Of a DNA stretch of 25,665 bases, positions 1 through 24,427 are shown one piece after another; position 1 is the first letter of the stretch, and each line of letters opens with the position of its first letter. The DNA is from a virus, in IMG/VR virus record IMGVR_UViG_3300045776_000016, positions 1 through 25,665 of that record; one strand, written 5' to 3'. A program made the position numbers and the translations under genes. The notes beneath the pieces are model-generated. The model saw only the letters and a list, made by a program, of their open reading frames with translations. It was not told where the DNA came from and ran no database searches.

Positions 1-861
1 GTAGCGGGGTTCTGCTGGCGCACTGCCACCGGTCGCCCTGCCGAACTGCGCTGGCGCCCTGGGGATCGTGTCGCGATGGCTGGCGCGGGGCATGGGGATG
101 CCATGCGGGCCGGTTTCCAGCATGCGCTGCACCGCAGCCGCGCCGGCCAGGCTATTCCCCTCCCCGAGGCCAGATATTAAATCGGCAGGAAGCACATAAC
201 TGCCCGCCGGAGCCGTCGTCTTGATCGCATCCGCCCGCCCGGGTGTGGCGCCCGCCAGGAAGCCGGTCGCCCCGCCTGACCCGGCGCCCCGCGCTTCCGA
301 GCGCGTCCACCAGGGGCTTGCCTCGGACCCGGACATGACGCCGCCATCGTCCCGCCGCTGGCGTGTCTGGCCGCCGCGCGCCTGCTGCTGCTGCGTCTGC
401 GGCGGCTGGATTGTCGGCGCCGATGCGGCTGCCGGCGCCTGTGCGGTCTGCGGCTTCGCTTGCTGCCCGGCTTGCGGCGTGTTCTGCGCCGACATGACGC
501 GCTTCTGCTGCAAGACTTTCTGGATGACCTGGCCTTGCGGCGTGCCGCCCATCATGACGGCCATCTGCTGAAGCTGGTCCGGCGACATCGACGAATACCG
601 CTGGATCATGCCTTGCATCAGCGGGCTTTCGCTCTGCGCCGATGGCGTGACGCCGCCGATGGATGGATCAGTCGAGCCTCCCGCGTCGCGGTGCATGATG
701 CCGCGCGCATGGTCGACCATCTTGTTCGCGGTCGCGATCGACAGCCCCTCGCTCGCCCCGCGCGTCAGGATCGCGTTGGCGATGCGCGCGGCGTGTGCGG
801 CCTGCTCGGGTGTCAGGCTGTGATTGTGTCGCTCGGCGAACTGCGGCCCGGTCCACGGCAT
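1..861 (-). CDS. Large phage structural-cassette protein, 3' end outside window
   Basis: An open frame of about 287 codons runs from an ATG at 861 to the left edge without a stop, so the C-terminus is missing. The start is well supported: AGGAGG lies five bases upstream. Residues 1-60 are helical (MPWTGPQFAERHNHSLTP), followed by a Gln/Met-rich stretch and a Pro/Gln linker ending in QQQQARGG (about 155-163). Near residues 218-235 is GSYVLPADLISGLGEG. From memory this motif recurs in structural-region proteins of alphaproteobacterial phages and prophages. The biochemical role is unknown. It is the last gene seen in the leftward tail cassette and lies 70 bases behind the 103-residue ORF. A virion or assembly role is inferred from position. 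The reading frame is very likely real; the function is not known. Confidence 0.8.
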   Translation of the reverse strand, partial: MPWTGPQFAERHNHSLTPEQAAHAARIANAILTRGASEGLSIATANKMVDHARGIMHRDAGGSTDPSIGGVTPSAQSESPLMQGMIQRYSSMSPDQLQQMAVMMGGTPQGQVIQKVLQQKRVMSAQNTPQAGQQAKPQTAQAPAAASAPTIQPPQTQQQQARGGQTRQRRDDGGVMSGSEASPWWTRSEARGAGSGGATGFLAGATPGRADAIKTTAPAGSYVLPADLISGLGEGNSLAGAAAVQRMLETGPHGIPMPRASHRDTIPRAPAQFGRATGGSAPAEPRY

Positions 862-881
862 GTCTGCCTCCTGTCTGCCGA

Positions 882-916
882 GGCATTACCACATCACTAC
901 AAGATGTGGCACTACC
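882..916 (-). promoter_or_regulatory. Intergenic RNA hairpin ahead of the 861 gene
   Basis: GGCATTACCACATC (882-895) and GATGTGGCACTACC (903-916) form an inverted repeat with a seven-base loop. The inner seven pairs are perfect. In the minus-strand transcript the outer part pairs with two G-U wobbles and one mismatch. No U-run follows, so it is not a classical terminator. It lies about 20 bases upstream of the start codon at 861 and just before the ribosome binding site. An attenuation, processing or mRNA-stability role is possible. Confidence 0.5.
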
Positions 917-931
917 TTTGCGCGGCAGCCC

Positions 932-1243
932 CTAGGACGTGACAACCGCTCCCGAGCAATACGAGAACCACGTTCCGGTATGACTGTTGAAGAACACAGG
1001 CACGCCGGTTCCCGATCCCACGCCTTCGCCTGGCTTCCGACCATTCGTGGCAAAAGCGAATTGCCCGCTTGCGCCCGACGCCGGAAGTGTCGCCACGGTG
1101 TAATTCGCTGGCGACGCCAGGACCGCGATGCCGTCGGCCATCGTCTGCCCGTTCGCCGTCAGTATCTGATTGAGCGTTTGCAGCACCGAGACAAGCGAAG
1201 TCAGGTCCAACGGCATGTTGGCGCCACCCGGCATAGTCGGCAT
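932..1243 (-). CDS. Small tail/fibre-associated protein
   Basis: This 103-residue protein starts at the ATG at 1243, four bases after the upstream stop, with a GGAGG-type ribosome binding site. The N-terminal part (about 10-45) is a Leu/Ile-rich helix (LVSVLQTLNQILTANGQ). The C-terminal part is glycine-rich and ends in a compact aromatic segment (NGRKPGEGVGSGTGVPVFF, then GTWFSYCSG). From memory, this NGRK-GEG-GTGV-FF/YF-GTW pattern recurs in small proteins of phage tail regions. A trimer-forming N-terminal helix with a small beta cap would fit, but this is inference. It sits between the nozzle-like protein and the large left-edge protein, and probably belongs to the short-tail tip. Confidence 0.75.
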   Translation of the reverse strand: MPTMPGGANMPLDLTSLVSVLQTLNQILTANGQTMADGIAVLASPANYTVATLPASGASGQFAFATNGRKPGEGVGSGTGVPVFFNSHTGTWFSYCSGAVVTS

Positions 1244-11491: not shown

Positions 11492-11890
11492 TTAGGCCGT
11501 TCCTTCTGTGCGAGCGAAATCGCCATGGTGTTCTGCTTCGGCGGCGAGGCGCGCGGCTTTGGCTTCGGTGATGGTTTTGAACGAGCCTAGAAACAGCGCC
11601 TTGCCGCCTGCGACTATCTGAGCCCGCCAGGAACCGCGCCGCGCTTCCCACGAGACGCCCTTGATCCCGGACTTGTTAGTTGTCCGCAAGCCTTGATTGG
11701 CGCTGTTCTGCCTCTGTGTTGCCAGGCGCAGGTTGCACCACCGGTTGTCAGATCGGACGCCGTTGATGTGGTCAACCCGACCGCCAACCTTTACCGCACC
11801 ATGCTCGCGGTGCAGCGTGCCGAGCCAGATACGGCATCCGCTGTTCGGTTCCCAGGTTGAGTTGGCTTCAAGTCGCTGCACTATGTTCAT
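11492..11890 (-). CDS. Free-standing HNH homing endonuclease with AP2 DNA-binding domain, shortened
   Basis: A 132-residue protein with an AAGGA ribosome binding site and start at 11890. Residues 17-57 are the HNH core: GCRIWLGTL, then GGRVDHINGVRSDNRWCNLR. Asp40, His41 and Asn53 correspond to the metal-binding Asp, catalytic His and Asn of I-HmuI-type enzymes. Residues 74-127 are an AP2-like domain (SGIKGVSWEARRGSWRAQI, LGSFKTITEAKAARLAAEAE, HGDFA). Relative to the usual layout, about 15 residues holding the first His-Arg are missing between GGR and VDH, so activity is uncertain. It sits between the major capsid gene and the next structural gene, as mobile phage endonucleases often do, and supplies the downstream gene's ribosome binding site. 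Confidence 0.88.
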   Translation of the reverse strand: MNIVQRLEANSTWEPNSGCRIWLGTLHREHGAVKVGGRVDHINGVRSDNRWCNLRLATQRQNSANQGLRTTNKSGIKGVSWEARRGSWRAQIVAGGKALFLGSFKTITEAKAARLAAEAEHHGDFARTEGTA

Positions 11891-17700: not shown

Positions 17701-20049
17701 CTACTCGCCTTCTTCGGCCGCTGGTTGTTGTGCTGCTGCGGTTGCGGCCTGCTGCTGACCTTCGACATGGTGCGCATGCTCTTGCGCCCTGTCCGCCGCC
17801 GCGTTCGCCGTCGAGTGCATCCTGTCTGCCGACGCGATCGAGCCATCCGACACGGCCTTGACCTTTGCAGCCTCCAGCGACATTGCGGCGCGCGTCTCGG
17901 CACTCTGCCGGTCCGCCTCGCGCTCCTGCCCCTCGGACTGGATCTCGGCCATGCGTTCCTGGTGCTTCTGTGTCTCGGTCTGCTGCTGCACTTGCGCCTT
18001 GTCGGTGTCGGACTTCGCCTTGATCTGCGCCGCAACGATGCGCGGGTCGGGCGGTGGCGGTGCCGCTTGCTGCTGCGGCATCTCGAACTCGTCGCTGTTC
18101 GCGCCCGCCAGCACACGAGACGCGTGCTTGAAGATCGCCCGGTTGTTCGCGATCCCCTGAAACTGCGGCAGGCCGCCGAGCATGATAAGGCCCTGCACCT
18201 TCATCAGCCGATGGATTTGCGATGGCGTGTTCGGGTCCGCCGCCGGGATCAAATCTGGCTGCAGCAGTTCATCCGCGATCTGCCATTGCCGGGACGGCCG
18301 CTTGTTGCCGCGGGTCAGCACCGCCGGGTCTTCGGCCAGCAATTCCCGCAGCATGTCGAACTCGTCTTGCTGCGAAATGTGATCGTCCTTGTGGACGGCG
18401 CCGGGCACCTGCGACACGCTCTCGATGTAGGACATGATCGTGCCTACCGGCGTGTTGCCGATGCGGCCTTCGCCTACCGGGATGTCCAGCACGCCAGCGA
18501 GCCGCTTGGCATCGTTCTCGACCTTGGACCCGAGTGCCATCGCTTCGGCCGAAGGCGGCTTGTAGGGCATCGGCATCAGCGCGTCGCCGATCGCCTGGGC
18601 ACCGGCGCCGTTGATCCCGATAACCTCGCCAGGCCCCGGACGTATTACCGTGTTGGTCTGCCGCGAAGTCGGCCCGATCAGTTGCAGGAACGCGGGGAAG
18701 TTTGCCAGCAGCGAGCTGTCCACGCACGAGCGCTGGATCATGGTGGCAACCTGTGTCGGGTTGCCGACGATGTGGATCAAGCCGAAGTCGTAGAAGCCAA
18801 ACCCCGGCAGGAAGCCGTATTTCACGTAGCGGCGTCGCGGCGTGTAGTCCTCGTCGTCCTGCTTCCAATTGCGCCGAATTTCGAGAATGGTCCGGCTGTC
18901 CAGGTCAATCGAGACGCGATACGGCAGCGGGAAGCCCGGCTTGCGCCCGTTCTCGTCCCTGTCAAGCTCGGACAGGTCCCCGATCAGCGACGACGTCGTG
19001 CCCGATCCGATCTCGCAATAGCACTCGTAGACCAAGTGTTCGAAGTCATCCGGCAGCGCTGGCGATGCGACGATGCCCTCGGCCTCCGAGACTGCCACCT
19101 CGGTGTCCGTGGTCTGCCCCGTCGGCTGCACCAATGCCACGTCGAGGTAGTGGCCGGACGCCTGCAACCGCCGCATCGTCGCCTGGCGGTAGCGGATGCG
19201 CTCCGTGACGCGGCCGGCACCCGACAGGTGCGCACAGTCGTTCGACACGATCAGGTCTTGCGCCTTGACCCACACGGACACCGGCTTGCGCTTGAGCGGG
19301 CAGCGATAGACCTTGCGGAACGCGTTTCCGATCAGCGCCCGATGAAAGATCATCTTGGAGAAGTCGGGGTAATACTCGCGATCCCCGACGGTCAGATACC
19401 AGTTCAGGTCTTTTTCCAACGCATCGGCCAGATCGTCCATGTCGCCCTGCGACTGGTCACCGGGGATGCCGGCGGCTTGCGGGGGCGGAGGCTGGCCCGG
19501 TGCGGCTGCCTGCTGCGGTTCGGGAACGTCGTCACGCCGCACCTTGACCGGCCCGGACACAGGCAGCAGCTCAGCCCGCGCGACGCCCCATAGCCGGGCG
19601 GCTGCCTCCAGCATGACCGTGCTGACGGCCTTGCAGACCGTGCCATCGGCTGAAACGCTCGTCGTCGGGTCTTGCAGCTTGATCCCAAGGAAGTCCGCAG
19701 CGCGGTTCGCCGTTTCTTCCCAATCCTTCCGCGACTGCAAATCCGCGTCGATGCCGTCAAGCAGGTAGGACGCCAGCGCACCAAGTGCGTTCATGTCCAT
19801 GCCATCGGCCAGGTTCGCGTCAAACTTGCCATCGCGCGCCGGAGGCTCGCCTGCCATGATACCGTCGCCGCCGATGGAGATTACCAGCCGGCCAGCCGCA
19901 TCCGTGCTCTCGGTGATCTGCGGCGCCGCGGGAGTGTCGTCTACAACCTCAACGGAAACAGGCCCGCCGGTCTGCTGACCGTGGACACGCACCTCGGGAG
20001 ACGCCTTGCGCAGTGCCGCAACGGCCATGTCTGTGTCCGTCCGCAGCAT
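17701..20049 (-). CDS. Portal protein (P22-type size class)
   Basis: A 782-residue protein; start at 20049, with an in-frame ATG at 20028 (MAVAALRKASPEV) as alternative. Residues 205-300 carry the diagnostic portal pattern: LEKDLNWYLTVGDREYYPDF, MIFHRALIGNAFRKVY and KPVSVWVKAQDLIVSND. This matches the wing/stem section of large podovirus portals. Residues 176-193 are a Pro/Gln linker. Residues from about 670 are a long charged, Gln/Ala-rich helix (DPRIVAAQIKAKSDTDKAQV onward), as expected for a C-terminal barrel or tunnel extension. The dodecameric portal is the DNA entry pore, the docking site for terminase and the base for the adaptor. Its promoter region faces the plus-strand gene at 20189. 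Confidence 0.83.
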   Translation of the reverse strand: MLRTDTDMAVAALRKASPEVRVHGQQTGGPVSVEVVDDTPAAPQITESTDAAGRLVISIGGDGIMAGEPPARDGKFDANLADGMDMNALGALASYLLDGIDADLQSRKDWEETANRAADFLGIKLQDPTTSVSADGTVCKAVSTVMLEAAARLWGVARAELLPVSGPVKVRRDDVPEPQQAAAPGQPPPPQAAGIPGDQSQGDMDDLADALEKDLNWYLTVGDREYYPDFSKMIFHRALIGNAFRKVYRCPLKRKPVSVWVKAQDLIVSNDCAHLSGAGRVTERIRYRQATMRRLQASGHYLDVALVQPTGQTTDTEVAVSEAEGIVASPALPDDFEHLVYECYCEIGSGTTSSLIGDLSELDRDENGRKPGFPLPYRVSIDLDSRTILEIRRNWKQDDEDYTPRRRYVKYGFLPGFGFYDFGLIHIVGNPTQVATMIQRSCVDSSLLANFPAFLQLIGPTSRQTNTVIRPGPGEVIGINGAGAQAIGDALMPMPYKPPSAEAMALGSKVENDAKRLAGVLDIPVGEGRIGNTPVGTIMSYIESVSQVPGAVHKDDHISQQDEFDMLRELLAEDPAVLTRGNKRPSRQWQIADELLQPDLIPAADPNTPSQIHRLMKVQGLIMLGGLPQFQGIANNRAIFKHASRVLAGANSDEFEMPQQQAAPPPPDPRIVAAQIKAKSDTDKAQVQQQTETQKHQERMAEIQSEGQEREADRQSAETRAAMSLEAAKVKAVSDGSIASADRMHSTANAAADRAQEHAHHVEGQQQAATAAAQQPAAEEGE

Positions 20050-20155
20050 CGATCGGTCGGCGGGACCATCGGCCAGGGCGGTTATGAGCGCGGATCAGCC
20101 GGCGCGGCGTCTGCGACGGGCGGACACTAAGATAGGCTGTGGCGGAAATGCAAGG

Positions 20156-20165
20156 ATGACGTCAT
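20156..20165. promoter_or_regulatory. 10-base palindrome in the divergent gap
   Basis: ATGACGTCAT is a perfect palindrome 24 bases before the GTG of the plus-strand gene. It abuts TATAGC (20165-20170), which could be a weak -10 box for rightward transcription; no good -35 is visible. The gap 20050-20188 separates the portal (leftward) from the membrane gene (rightward) and must hold any promoter for the latter. Confidence 0.35.
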
Positions 20166-20188
20166 ATAGCGCGTGAAGGAGATCGATC

Positions 20189-20362
20189 GTGGACGAACTG
20201 TTTGACCCGCTCGTTGGGTGGCTCCCCGATTTTCTGCAAGGCCCCGCGGTTCTGGTGTTGCTCGCGCTCGCGATATTCATCGTTTGGGTGTTCAAGCGCG
20301 GACTGAAGTCGATCCTGGATGAAGGCGCGGAGATCAACCGGCAGCGGGAGCGGTGGAAGTAG
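20189..20362 (+). CDS. Small single-span membrane protein, only plus-strand gene
   Basis: A 57-residue ORF starting with GTG at 20189 with AAGGAG (20176-20181) seven bases upstream, one of the best ribosome binding sites in the window. It begins MDELFDPLVGWLPDFLQGP, has one membrane helix at about 20-36 (AVLVLLALAIFIVWVF), then a basic stop-transfer KRG and a charged tail (LDEGAEINRQRERWK). It is probably N-out or N-in with the charged tail cytoplasmic by the positive-inside rule. The reverse-strand frame over it is low-quality. It runs opposite to every neighbour, tail to tail with the 20368 ORF (five bases apart) and head to head with the portal. A moron-type gene, a holin-like protein or a superinfection-exclusion protein are possibilities; none is demonstrated. 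Confidence 0.75.
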   Translation: MDELFDPLVGWLPDFLQGPAVLVLLALAIFIVWVFKRGLKSILDEGAEINRQRERWK

Positions 20363-20367
20363 CTACC

Positions 20368-20574
20368 TCACGAACCTGACTGGACAGACGGCCGACGCCA
20401 AAGCGCTTCGTCCGTGAATTCGTCGCGGCGCCAGTCGATTTCTTCCCACCCATCACCTTCCGGTGGATGGACCACGCTCTTTCGGCCGCCCTCAGTCGTG
20501 GCGTATTCAAATCGCGCCTCGTCAAACGGTTCTATTGTGCGGTGAACGCCTTCCGGCGGCCATTGAACAGTCAT
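20368..20574 (-). CDS. Small acidic phage protein, unknown function
   Basis: A 68-residue protein. The ATG at 20574 overlaps the upstream stop as TAATG and is preferred to the longer reading. The sequence opens MTVQWPPEGVHRTIEPFDEA and has DGWEEIDWRRDEFTDEALWR toward the end. It is Trp- and Glu/Asp-rich, with no cysteines or membrane segment. Similar DGW-x-E-x-DW short proteins occur in phage genomes without a known role. It is the last gene of the terminase operon before the plus-strand gene. Confidence 0.7.
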   Translation of the reverse strand: MTVQWPPEGVHRTIEPFDEARFEYATTEGGRKSVVHPPEGDGWEEIDWRRDEFTDEALWRRPSVQSGS

Positions 20575-20870
20575 TAGACGGATTTCTTCAGCGCCGCGTC
20601 GATCATGTCGCGCCACATGACGTCAGCCTCCTTGTAGGGGTCCGGAACATACCCAAGCCCCGATAGGTCCGAATAGTTGCCAGCCACCACCATCGCCTCA
20701 GTCGGTTCGCGCATGGCGGCGATGGCAGCGCGGGCCAGCGCGCGGTAGTGCTCGGCCAGAAACAGGTAGCGCGGCCTGCTGAAAACCTCAGCGGGCGGCA
20801 CATCCTCATAGTCGCTTACTGGGGTGCTCTCGCTCAACTTCCGCGCCACCCGCTCAACCATCTCGTTCAT
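20574..20870 (-). CDS. Phage protein with AMREPTEAM motif, unknown function
   Basis: A 98-residue protein starting at 20870, two bases after the terL stop. It has an N-terminal helix (MNEMVERVARKLSE), a central LAEHYRALARAAIAAMREPT and a C-terminal WRDMIDAALKK. This AI-x-AMREPTEAM plus W-R-x-MIDAAL pattern is common in short proteins of phages and prophages of many proteobacteria, none of which has a known function to my knowledge. It overlaps the next gene, suggesting coupled translation. Confidence in the reading frame is high. Confidence 0.8.
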   Translation of the reverse strand: MNEMVERVARKLSESTPVSDYEDVPPAEVFSRPRYLFLAEHYRALARAAIAAMREPTEAMVVAGNYSDLSGLGYVPDPYKEADVMWRDMIDAALKKSV

Positions 20871-20872
20871 AG

Positions 20873-22600
20873 CTACGATCCTATCGCGTACGGAACGCCA
20901 GGCGGACGCCGGTAAACCTTCCGCTCGTGCTCAATCGCATCATACTCGGCGCGACGTAGGACGACGCCATGCCGACGCATGAAGGACAGGGCCATGGAGC
21001 AAGAGTCGACGTAATCATCGTGCTTGCCCCGCGGGAACGATGTCACCTCGTCAACAACCTCTTGCGACCAGTCCTTGCCCGGCTCCCACACCATGCCGCC
21101 GGACCAGACATCCATCCCGCTCACCGGGTCTTTGCGCACATCCCCGCTGAACATCGGCGAGACAGCATGCAACCGCGCAACCTTGTCGCCGCTGAACGCG
21201 CCCTTGCCATTCGCCGGGATCAGCATCGTGGTCCACGGCGCATCCGCAAACTGCCGCTTGATCTCGGCCGCCGTGTCATGCCCGCGCGCCTTGTCCTCGA
21301 TGATGAGGTAATCCGCCTTCTTCGCGTAGCAGAACCGGCCAACCATCTCCGCCAGTTTCGCCAGTGGGCACTTCGCACGCTCGGCACCGGTCAGGATCAC
21401 GTTCGGCGCCCCGCCGTCGCCCTCAAACGCACCCCATGATGTCCACGCGTTCCAGTCGTTCTCCTCCGCCTCCTTGATCGCCGTGTCCAGACTGACGACA
21501 ACCGTTCCGAGGTCGGGGAACGCAGGCGATGACCAGTACCGCCACCAGTCGCGACGAATGATCCCGCCACCGCGGATCGTCGGACTTTGCTGATACTGCC
21601 CGGCCCAGGCGTAGGGGCCTTTGATCTTCTTCAGAGCCTCGATGGCTTCCGGTGAGAACCGTTCGGGCCATGCGAGCGTGCCCTCGGCCTGCGCCATCGG
21701 CGAACCCATCCGGACCTTCAGCACGCCCTTATCGTCAGTGAACAGCCCCTCCAGCTCGTTGCCTTCGTCATCGAGGCCGCGAGGATCCCGGAACACCTGT
21801 ATCGGCTCGCCGTCGTCATCCCGACGCAGCACAACGGGGTTATCACGTAGCGGTTCAAACTCCATCGGGATGCACATCCAGGTGTAGTTTGATCCGAACT
21901 CGGCCAGCACGCCGGTCGCATCCTGCTCATGCGTCCGCTGCTGGATGTTGATGATTGCGCCTTCATCCAGGTTGGAAAGTCGGTCGGGCATGACTTCGCG
22001 GAGCCACATGCTCGTGCCGGCGCGCACCGCGTCAGACTCTACCGTGTTTGGGTCTGAGGCGTCATCGAGCAGGATGTAATCGGCGCGGTGCCCGGTTGTG
22101 CCTGATCCAACCGAGATCGCCCGTTTCCATCCGGTCTTGCTGTTCTCAACAAGCCCAAGCCCCTCGCGGGTCAATGTCACCCGGTCGCCCCATAGCCGCT
22201 GATACTCCGGCGCATTGATTATGCGGCGGAAGCGGTCGTTGTCGCGCTCAGGCAGAGCAATCGAGTAGGACGCAGACAGGAAACGCAAATGCGGCATGTT
22301 GCACGGCCCCCACAACCACGCCGGATAGTAGCAATTCAGGAGCAACGACTTCATGGAGCCCGGCGACACATTGATGATGAGCCGCTTGATGTGACCATCG
22401 GCCACCGCCATCAGCGCGTCCGCCATCGCCTCCAAAACCCATCCCTCCATGAACTTTGTCTGAGGTTCGACACAGCGCCAGAACGCGCGCACGAAGGCCA
22501 GCAGGTCTTGCTCACATTTCTCCTTCAGCGCCGCAGCCTGGCGGCGCCGCTCTATCTCGGCCCGCGCCCGCTCCCTGACCCTCGCAGCGAGGTCTGCCAT
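20873..22600 (-). CDS. terL: Terminase large subunit (ATPase and nuclease)
   Basis: A 575-residue packaging motor. The start at 22600 overlaps the upstream stop (TGATG). The ATPase domain has a Walker A at 78-85 (VSPGSMKS, Lys84), a form with Met before Lys that I regard as typical of this terminase group, and a Walker B at 175-180 (YILLDD). QQRTHEQD (220-227) follows where the coupling motif is expected. The RNase-H-like nuclease domain shows Asp372 (VVSLDTAI), Glu435/Asp436 (YLIIEDKA) and Asp528/Asp529 (GKHDDYVD). TerL cuts concatemeric DNA and pumps it through the portal. TerS lies upstream with three small ORFs between, and the portal follows downstream beyond three small genes. Confidence 0.95.
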   Translation of the reverse strand: MADLAARVRERARAEIERRRQAAALKEKCEQDLLAFVRAFWRCVEPQTKFMEGWVLEAMADALMAVADGHIKRLIINVSPGSMKSLLLNCYYPAWLWGPCNMPHLRFLSASYSIALPERDNDRFRRIINAPEYQRLWGDRVTLTREGLGLVENSKTGWKRAISVGSGTTGHRADYILLDDASDPNTVESDAVRAGTSMWLREVMPDRLSNLDEGAIINIQQRTHEQDATGVLAEFGSNYTWMCIPMEFEPLRDNPVVLRRDDDGEPIQVFRDPRGLDDEGNELEGLFTDDKGVLKVRMGSPMAQAEGTLAWPERFSPEAIEALKKIKGPYAWAGQYQQSPTIRGGGIIRRDWWRYWSSPAFPDLGTVVVSLDTAIKEAEENDWNAWTSWGAFEGDGGAPNVILTGAERAKCPLAKLAEMVGRFCYAKKADYLIIEDKARGHDTAAEIKRQFADAPWTTMLIPANGKGAFSGDKVARLHAVSPMFSGDVRKDPVSGMDVWSGGMVWEPGKDWSQEVVDEVTSFPRGKHDDYVDSCSMALSFMRRHGVVLRRAEYDAIEHERKVYRRPPGVPYAIGS

Positions 22601-22914
22601 CAGTCGTCAGATAGCCAGTCGCAAACCACCGCGGCCTCGACACGACTGCGGAAGAAACCGCCTATCGCGATCTTAGGCAACGGATCGCGGCGGTCGTGAC
22701 AAACACTCACGCTTGACGAACCGTCGCGGTCCCATACCACAACCGCCACCCCCACAATCGACCCGCCGGCGTCGATATGGCCGTCAACCGTATCGCAGCA
22801 GGTTTTCAGCGCTTGGCGCCGGTCCCGCTCGCGATTGTCGGGGAACATCAGCAGTCGCGGGCCATCGGAGCCACGCGGGCGCACAGACCGGATGCGAACC
22901 CGCGCAGCCGTCAT
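22600..22914 (-). CDS. Small phage protein upstream of terL, unknown function
   Basis: A 104-residue protein. The ATG at 22914 shares bases with the preceding stop (TGATG), and its stop shares bases with the terL start, so three genes are chained. It begins MTAARVRIRSVRPRGSDGPR, contains NRERDRRQALKTCCDTVDGH and a beta segment (SIVGVAVVVWDRDGSSSVS), and ends VEAAVVCDWLSDD. The longer reading to 23157 adds arginine-rich sequence from the overlapping gene and is rejected. The fold is probably alpha/beta. No family is recognised. Confidence 0.7.
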   Translation of the reverse strand: MTAARVRIRSVRPRGSDGPRLLMFPDNRERDRRQALKTCCDTVDGHIDAGGSIVGVAVVVWDRDGSSSVSVCHDRRDPLPKIAIGGFFRSRVEAAVVCDWLSDD

Positions 22915-23186
22915 CACGCCTGCCCCTCGACCGTTTCGAGCCGGGAGAAGTCGATGGCGGCCAGGTCTGCCACCCGCACGCTCCACTCGCCGCACGCCAT
23001 GTCCTGTGCCGTCTCGGGCCAGTATGTGGCCACCACGGGTTGCGGTTGCCCGATCGCGCTCCGCTGCATCCCGAGCAGTAGCGGGACAGGCGGGCGGGCG
23101 CGGCAGATGCCGCCCTGCGACCCGGTGACAGACAGCCAGTGCCGGCAGTTGCCGCACCCGTTGATAGATCCCGTATCCGCGGTCAT
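22914..23186 (-). CDS. Small four-cysteine protein, probable zinc binder
   Basis: A 90-residue protein whose ATG at 23186 overlaps the upstream stop (ATGA). Cys11 and Cys14 (CGNCRHW), Cys28 (GICRARPP) and Cys65 (ACGEW) form a spaced cysteine set with an intervening WPET segment. This CRHW...CR-RPP...WP-T...CGEW layout is common in small uncharacterised phage proteins and suggests one structural zinc. The C-terminus (IDFSRLETVEGQA) is acidic. It lies in the short cluster between terS and terL. A regulatory or packaging-accessory role is speculative. Confidence 0.75.
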   Translation of the reverse strand: MTADTGSINGCGNCRHWLSVTGSQGGICRARPPVPLLLGMQRSAIGQPQPVVATYWPETAQDMACGEWSVRVADLAAIDFSRLETVEGQA

Positions 23187-23623
23187 GGCGTGGTCCTCAG
23201 TCCAATCGTGGGATGCCCGGCAGATAGCGCGCGGGCGGGTAGCGGGGGCTTGCTGGAGGCAGCGGGAGGCGTCGCAGGGGCGAGCGGCAGCGGCTTGCTC
23301 CACCAGTCAGCCTCGGCCGTTAGTGCCGCGATCTGACCCCGTTGCCGAATGATCTCCGCCTCGAGTTGCCGGATGCGATGCTCGAGCGTGGGGATGTCGG
23401 CGGCCTGCTTGTGCGCCAGGTCTTTCCAGAGAGCGGGGACGTAGGCAGCGTCCGCGGTGCGCTCGGAGCCGGGCTGAGCCGGATCGACCGCGAACGGCCG
23501 CAGGTGCGCCGGGTCTGGCAGGCCGAGGCCGGCGCGCCTCACCTGCTGCGCCCCGTTGACCGCAGCCCACCTATCGGCCGCCTGTTGCGGGGCAGGGCGG
23601 CTCGTATCGGGGTGACCCGTCAT
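23183..23623 (-). CDS. Coiled-coil protein, first gene after the terS gap
   Basis: A 146-residue protein starting at 23623 with GAAGGA upstream. Residues 1-70 are Pro/Ala/Gln-rich (QQAADRWAAVNGAQQVRRAG). Residues 73-105 are a coiled coil (IPTLEHRIRQLEAEIIRQRG then QIAALTAEADWW). The end is Pro/Ala-rich. Coiled coil plus flexible arms suggests an oligomeric accessory protein. It is the first gene downstream of the palindromic regulatory gap, so it would be the leader of any transcript started there. No family is recognised. Confidence 0.7.
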   Translation of the reverse strand: MTGHPDTSRPAPQQAADRWAAVNGAQQVRRAGLGLPDPAHLRPFAVDPAQPGSERTADAAYVPALWKDLAHKQAADIPTLEHRIRQLEAEIIRQRGQIAALTAEADWWSKPLPLAPATPPAASSKPPLPARALSAGHPTIGLRTTP

Positions 23624-23801: not shown

Positions 23802-23810
23802 TATTGTCAA
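23784..23810 (-). promoter_or_regulatory. Candidate sigma70-type promoter, leftward
   Basis: A perfect TTGACA lies at 23810-23805, overlapping the terS stop codon. TATGCT (23789-23784) follows after a 15-base spacer, shorter than the 17 usually preferred. The putative -10 lies inside the palindrome. Such a promoter would express the accessory ORFs, terL and the genes beyond, independently of terS. Confidence 0.4.
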
Positions 23811-24352
23811 TGGCGTGTGTCTCCGTCGCTGGTCTCGCGTCCTGTCTCGGCCAGGGCGGCCAATTCCTCGTCTGTGAGGTCGGCCACGCCCTTGATCAGC
23901 CGGACGCTCTTGCGGTCCTCGATGTGGCCGAGGATGCGCGCCAGATCGACCAGGGCGCCACGCTTGTCAGCCGGTCGTATGACGCTGTCGGCCGTCACAG
24001 GAGCCATGGCCATCGACGCGAGCTCGCGGACGATGCTGGCCTTGCTCACATCGTATTGCCGGGCCGTTTCCACGGCCGCAGCGGCCGCGCTGACGCGAGC
24101 GATGGCCAGAATGGGGGATATCTTGGGATGATCGACCAATCGTTTTGCCTCGCGTGACGCGTCCTGTCCGGACCATTTGAGTGATGCTGGATATGCGCTG
24201 CGATAGGCTGCTGTGGCGTTGGCCATGTCGTTTGAGATGTATGCGGTGACGAACGCCCTCTGCTGAGTGGTGAGGGCTTGCATGAGTGCGCTGATTGTCG
24301 CCGCGTGCTCATCAGACAGATCATCGTCGATATCGTCTGTGATGTCGGACAT
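23807..24352 (-). CDS. terS: Terminase small subunit
   Basis: A 181-residue protein. The ATG at 24352 (MSDITDDIDDDLSDEH) is preferred; a TTG at 24409 would add 19 unsupported residues. LTTQQRAFVTAYISNDMANA (about 27-46) followed by ATAAYRSAYP is the typical opening of Terminase_2-type small subunits, a helix-turn-helix that recognises the packaging site. ASREAKRLVDHPKI and a central helical oligomerisation region follow, then KRGALVDLARILGHIEDRKS. The acidic N- and C-termini are usual. It marks viral DNA for TerL. The gene is separated from terL by three small ORFs and a regulatory gap, rather than being adjacent. Confidence 0.88.
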   Translation of the reverse strand: MSDITDDIDDDLSDEHAATISALMQALTTQQRAFVTAYISNDMANATAAYRSAYPASLKWSGQDASREAKRLVDHPKISPILAIARVSAAAAAVETARQYDVSKASIVRELASMAMAPVTADSVIRPADKRGALVDLARILGHIEDRKSVRLIKGVADLTDEELAALAETGRETSDGDTRH

Positions 24353-24427
24353 CTGGCGGTGCGCTCCGATCTCGCGAAATGCGATGGTGTCAATATCGCA
24401 GCGGGGCAACGGATTGCAATATCTGTG

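Follow-up and report, generated by a model that had tools for sequence, protein, structure and literature searches.

What is a single short frame doing between packaging and head genes that all read the other way, and is it a gene at all? The window analysed here, a whole virus record of 25,665 bases, carries the late half of an uncultivated tailed phage. As the original prediction had it, the other recognised genes are leftward: the small and large terminase subunits (the latter TerL), the portal, the major capsid protein and the structural genes (Table 1). Neither Pfam nor PHROGs recognised the portal, which shares about 23-63% identity with proteins annotated as portal or "head to tail connecting" in other phages, where TerL lies near. 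Related TerL and portal proteins occur in isolates of about 50-65 kb (Pelagibacter HTVC023P and HTVC027P, Roseobacter CRP-901 and CRP-902, Caulobacter RW and Planktothrix Pag-Yong1), and a capsid-protein search led to the nearest relatives, uncultivated contigs of at most 70 kb whose capsid identity is in most cases 78-85%.

Table 1. Features at the TerL-portal locus of the window and at the corresponding site in relatives (window positions unless a relative is named)
Feature	Position	Strand	Basis or remark
Portal (head-to-tail connecting) protein	17701..20049	-	homology and synteny
Intergenic gap, divergent from portal gene; candidate promoter region	20050..20188		139 bp
10-base palindrome ATGACGTCAT	20156..20165		no more than base composition gives
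Shine-Dalgarno AAGGAG	20176..20181	+	7 nt before GTG, by sequence
Putative 57-aa single-span membrane protein gene, GTG start	20189..20362	+	coding score, Shine-Dalgarno, helix, structure model
82-aa ORF (68 aa from inner ATG)	20368..20616	-	weak coding signal, doubtful; convergent with 57-aa gene
98-aa ORF	20574..20870	-	good coding signal
Terminase large subunit (TerL)	20873..22600	-	homology, synteny
Terminase small subunit	23807..24409	-	Pfam/PHROGs-type profile matches
Family of about 65 aa	L094:1377-1571; L096:1234-1431; L098:5075-5278; L128:2531-2797	- (all)	
Cro/CI-type HTH_3 regulator, opposite strand, upstream of portal	L098:5275-5679; L139 about 628-981	-	

The rightward ORF of 57 codons begins with GTG, as predicted, ends with TAG at 20360-20362 and has a well-spaced AAGGAG ahead of it. 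The clean membrane helix and charged tail described for its product were confirmed: hydropathy peaks at a Kyte-Doolittle (KD) value of 2.91 from residue 19, and net charge changes from -4 ahead of the helix to +3 behind it, in a basic tail. Its coding score of 0.39 bits per codon lies among those of most long genes of the window (0.25-0.58), GC by codon position (0.70/0.33/0.79) falls inside the span of the long genes, and the remaining five frames over the same stretch all score lower. An antisense ORF of 80 aa (20095-20337, minus strand) was ruled out as a true gene by its codon usage, with a score of -0.10. A single-sequence AlphaFold model places helices at residues 5-16 and 19-56, with a mean pLDDT of 80.

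Among ORFs of at least 50 aa, exactly one in the window combines an SD-like (Shine-Dalgarno-like) motif with a strong membrane helix, and it is this one; simulated windows with the same dinucleotide make-up held 0.005 such ORFs on average. That a ribosome-binding motif, a strong helix and phage-like codon usage should coincide in an ORF that fills its gap, stopping 5 bases short of the convergent 82-aa ORF, makes it improbable that we are looking at a chance opening in GC-rich intergenic DNA that is never expressed, although such a reading would account for the lack of conservation in any relative and of a detectable promoter. Codon usage, the Shine-Dalgarno motif and the helix instead favour what appears to be a real gene.

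The check proposed for the frame, conservation in related phages, was carried out and none was found. Searches for relatives of the 57-aa protein found none in viral contigs, isolated phages, plasmids or 19 related records, nor, with relaxed statistics, at any of the TerL-portal loci that we fetched, and PADLOC gave no match. Weak matches fall over the membrane helix, to NCBIfam MIGRI (NF047648, E 0.009) and Pfam DUF6019 (E 0.041), both under the curated cut-offs, and to phrog_4169 (E 0.036), likewise weak. We rejected all three as families of this protein, the overlap reflecting helix composition only. By sequence comparison the gene is an apparent orphan among all the sets searched, and since these gave no homolog, the frame offers no test of selection. 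Non-conservation is equally compatible with an orphan accessory gene and with a chance ORF.

The gene had been placed between the terminase operon and the portal. It does adjoin the portal gene directly, but the 98-aa and 82-aa ORFs separate it from TerL; relatives of the 98-aa ORF were sought in known phages and none was found. We compared this junction in 69 contigs, some redundant, where TerL and portal are both visible; the two genes lie between 0 and about 5 kb apart. In every relative examined the 57-aa gene is missing from the junction while portal and TerL are conserved there, so that an extra gene stands between conserved flanks, as is expected of a moron. Where portals are 51-63% identical to that of the window (L033, L034, L036, L039, L045 and others), the junction either holds nothing or is occupied by unrelated ORFs, most of them on the same strand. 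It is empty in L079, L081, L082 and L086 and nearly so in L078, and L033/L080, L034/L085, L036/L075, L077 and L084 have there, for the most part, small same-strand ORFs that bear no relation to the 57-aa protein. Part of the more distant relatives have a conserved same-strand protein of about 70 aa at this position. The TerL-portal junction is a variable cargo site of this phage group, occupied locally by the 57-aa gene.

Cargo on the opposite strand is also found there. A protein of about 65 aa lies opposite to TerL and portal at the junction in L094, L096, L098 and L128; its members share 45-62% identity, have a consensus like ITxPxFxAGLVARDGRVIEAAPxxRYMxGWxGxRVAxYCRxKGWxWE and find no match in Pfam. 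The HTH_3 regulator upstream of the portal in L098 and L139 suggests independently regulated cargo at the junction. Both the family and the regulator are unrelated to the 57-aa protein, and this survey leaves out opposite-strand junction ORFs that look like GC-rich shadows (in L107, L133 and L143, for example). Across this large uncultivated phage group, cargo recurs at the junction on either strand. We dropped the notion of the opposite strand as the early one, since the strands are mixed in the relative G005, where SSB and ERF lie opposite to the late genes and DnaB lies on the late strand.

Several other features came to light in the window and its relatives. In a near relative, a 224-aa gene opposite to the late genes (L062:5263-5937, minus strand, on the contig of L034 at 43263-43937) sits just upstream of decoration and capsid genes, another solitary opposite-strand insertion in a head module. 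The contig of L039 has two adjacent proteins with terminal PEP-CTERM sorting motifs (L066:10891-12257, minus strand), and that of L034 encodes a PAS-domain protein and, after it, one of 99 aa with a membrane helix at its C-terminus (L060:4680-5159, plus strand). A 129-aa ORF lies upstream of TerL in the window (22914-23303, minus strand), but in L034, L039, L041, L043 and L045 its relatives are found downstream of the portal; from these positions it appears to be a cargo gene that shifts its place. Between the capsid gene and the next structural gene, an HNH-AP2 ORF (11492-11890, minus strand) resembles what an internal deletion would leave of a longer endonuclease with two HNH domains and AP2, present at the equivalent place in L034 (11032-12123) and L038.

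How the 57-aa gene would be switched on is a separate matter. If it is expressed, its orientation opposite to the late genes requires separate transcription. The upstream gap of its own that had been noted is there, and part of it (20120-20180) is AT-richer than the window (GC 0.52 vs 0.64). Scans for sigma-70 promoters and hairpins at 19900-21000 returned neither a consensus sigma-70 promoter nor an intrinsic terminator, other promoter types being outside their range; self-contained control, part of the original prediction, was therefore not detected, and since these scans came back empty, orientation is the one argument for independent control. The 10-base palindrome that had been pointed out is present but not significant, being one of 21 such palindromes in the window, and we rejected it as an operator because that number is not above chance.

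Expression from a prophage, a setting often associated with morons and put forward for this gene, was not supported. Tyrosine and serine recombinase domains are absent from two near relatives of 67 and 70 kb, and no prophage relative was met in bacterial genomes (one per species) scanned with the portal and capsid proteins, by a method that matches short exact peptide patterns and so misses distant relatives; the window is itself a genome fragment. Recombinase domains of both kinds, tyrosine or serine, do occur in some more distant relatives. Prophage expression is therefore unproven and, as regards the near group, unsupported.

We lean, by a modest degree, towards an accessory, moron-like gene whose product, a peptide of the inner membrane, would act on the host envelope. 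The accessory part of this reading agrees with the original prediction and draws on the variable junction, the absence of the gene from relatives with portals 51-63% identical, the opposite-strand genes in distant relatives and the precedent of phage SPP1 described below. Base composition gives no sign of recent import (GC 0.60 in the ORF vs 0.64 in the window), and a deviant composition is frequent but not obligatory in morons.

We propose a model where an orphan gene, inserted opposite to the late genes at the TerL-portal cargo site, would be transcribed rightward from the AT-richer upstream gap, independently of the leftward packaging and head operon. Its predicted product has one transmembrane helix, at about residues 19-36. 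With an acidic N-terminus (net -4) and a basic KRGLK following the helix, the positive-inside rule would orient it N-out/C-in, so that the tryptophan-containing N-terminus may face the periplasm and the basic, partly amphipathic helical tail the cytoplasm. The protein would act on the host inner membrane to the benefit of the phage. Superinfection exclusion, with the entry of a second phage's DNA blocked, is our favoured guess at its specific role, a tentative one of low confidence, and other envelope effects share the rest; our searches, PADLOC included, gave no specific pointer to exclusion, and the literature on exclusion proteins and morons offered general precedents only.

A peptide of this build might act on the host in other ways. 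Small membrane toxins resemble it in having a single helix and a basic tail within a short chain. A type I toxin-like protein or early inhibitor, taking over the host through depolarisation of its membrane or binding to one of its membrane proteins, could even be paired with an antisense RNA, which convergent leftward transcription from terL might yield. With no family match in Pfam, PHROGs, NCBIfam or PADLOC, we consider this unlikely. A holin-like role, also raised at the outset, fared poorly. A holin, antiholin or other lysis peptide would cross the inner membrane once, accumulate there and time lysis, and the small size, single strong helix and charged tail would suit it; a weak 66-aa candidate aside, the window shows no second strong small membrane protein, and the phage's lysis genes lie outside this fragment. 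Yet Pfam, PHROGs and NCBIfam give no holin family match, the gene is opposite to the late operon in which lysis genes normally read, and neither an endolysin nor a spanin was recognised among its neighbours. The sole endolysin domain in a relative, GH108 at 51538-51789 of the 53.8-kb contig of L158, is far from TerL and portal, and near relatives do without any such gene at the junction. A holin is less likely than an accessory envelope-acting peptide, and we hold it to be quite improbable.

Position between packaging and head genes might also suggest a part of the virion: a membrane-active minor protein that serves in structure or DNA ejection and leaves the host unaltered. Relatives encode very large late proteins of a kind that could act in ejection. 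Since the gene lies on the strand opposite to the late genes and relatives that share the head genes lack it, this seems to us the most doubtful of the alternatives.

For the moron-like reading that we prefer, the broader implications are modest. If real, the gene adds to the orphan small membrane proteins of a kind overlooked by gene callers; it is ordinary in kind and by itself nothing very surprising. The recurrent cargo site is a modestly useful by-product, as the TerL-portal junction offers a simple place to seek small anti-host or exclusion genes. It is tempting to speculate, as a long shot, that the junction is a cargo hot spot for opposite-strand units switched on apart from the late operon, among them regulators, small soluble proteins and, in this phage, a membrane protein, and that the 57-aa protein is the first of a new phage-encoded family of inner-membrane exclusion or host-control proteins.

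Among known systems, HK97 gp15 is a superinfection-exclusion membrane protein. Like it, the 57-aa protein would come from an accessory gene and is predicted to be small and to lie in the inner membrane, but there is no sequence match, and size and insertion site differ. Closer to hand, the cargo genes of L094, L096, L098 and L128 share with it both the TerL-portal site and the orientation relative to the late genes; that of L139 has the same orientation and lies upstream of the portal in a contig with no TerL. Unlike the 57-aa protein, this cargo of distant relatives consists of a soluble family of about 65 aa and the HTH_3 regulator, with no membrane helix. In Bacillus phage SPP1, ORFs 3-5 between the terminase and portal genes have been termed morons, and several small transmembrane ORFs elsewhere in that genome are among its morons (PMC6316719). 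The 57-aa gene differs from SPP1 ORFs 3-5 in being on the opposite strand, in having no identified promoter or terminator and in showing no sequence relation to them. What it shares with them is the arrangement itself, a small extra ORF between terminase and portal that is absent or different in relatives.
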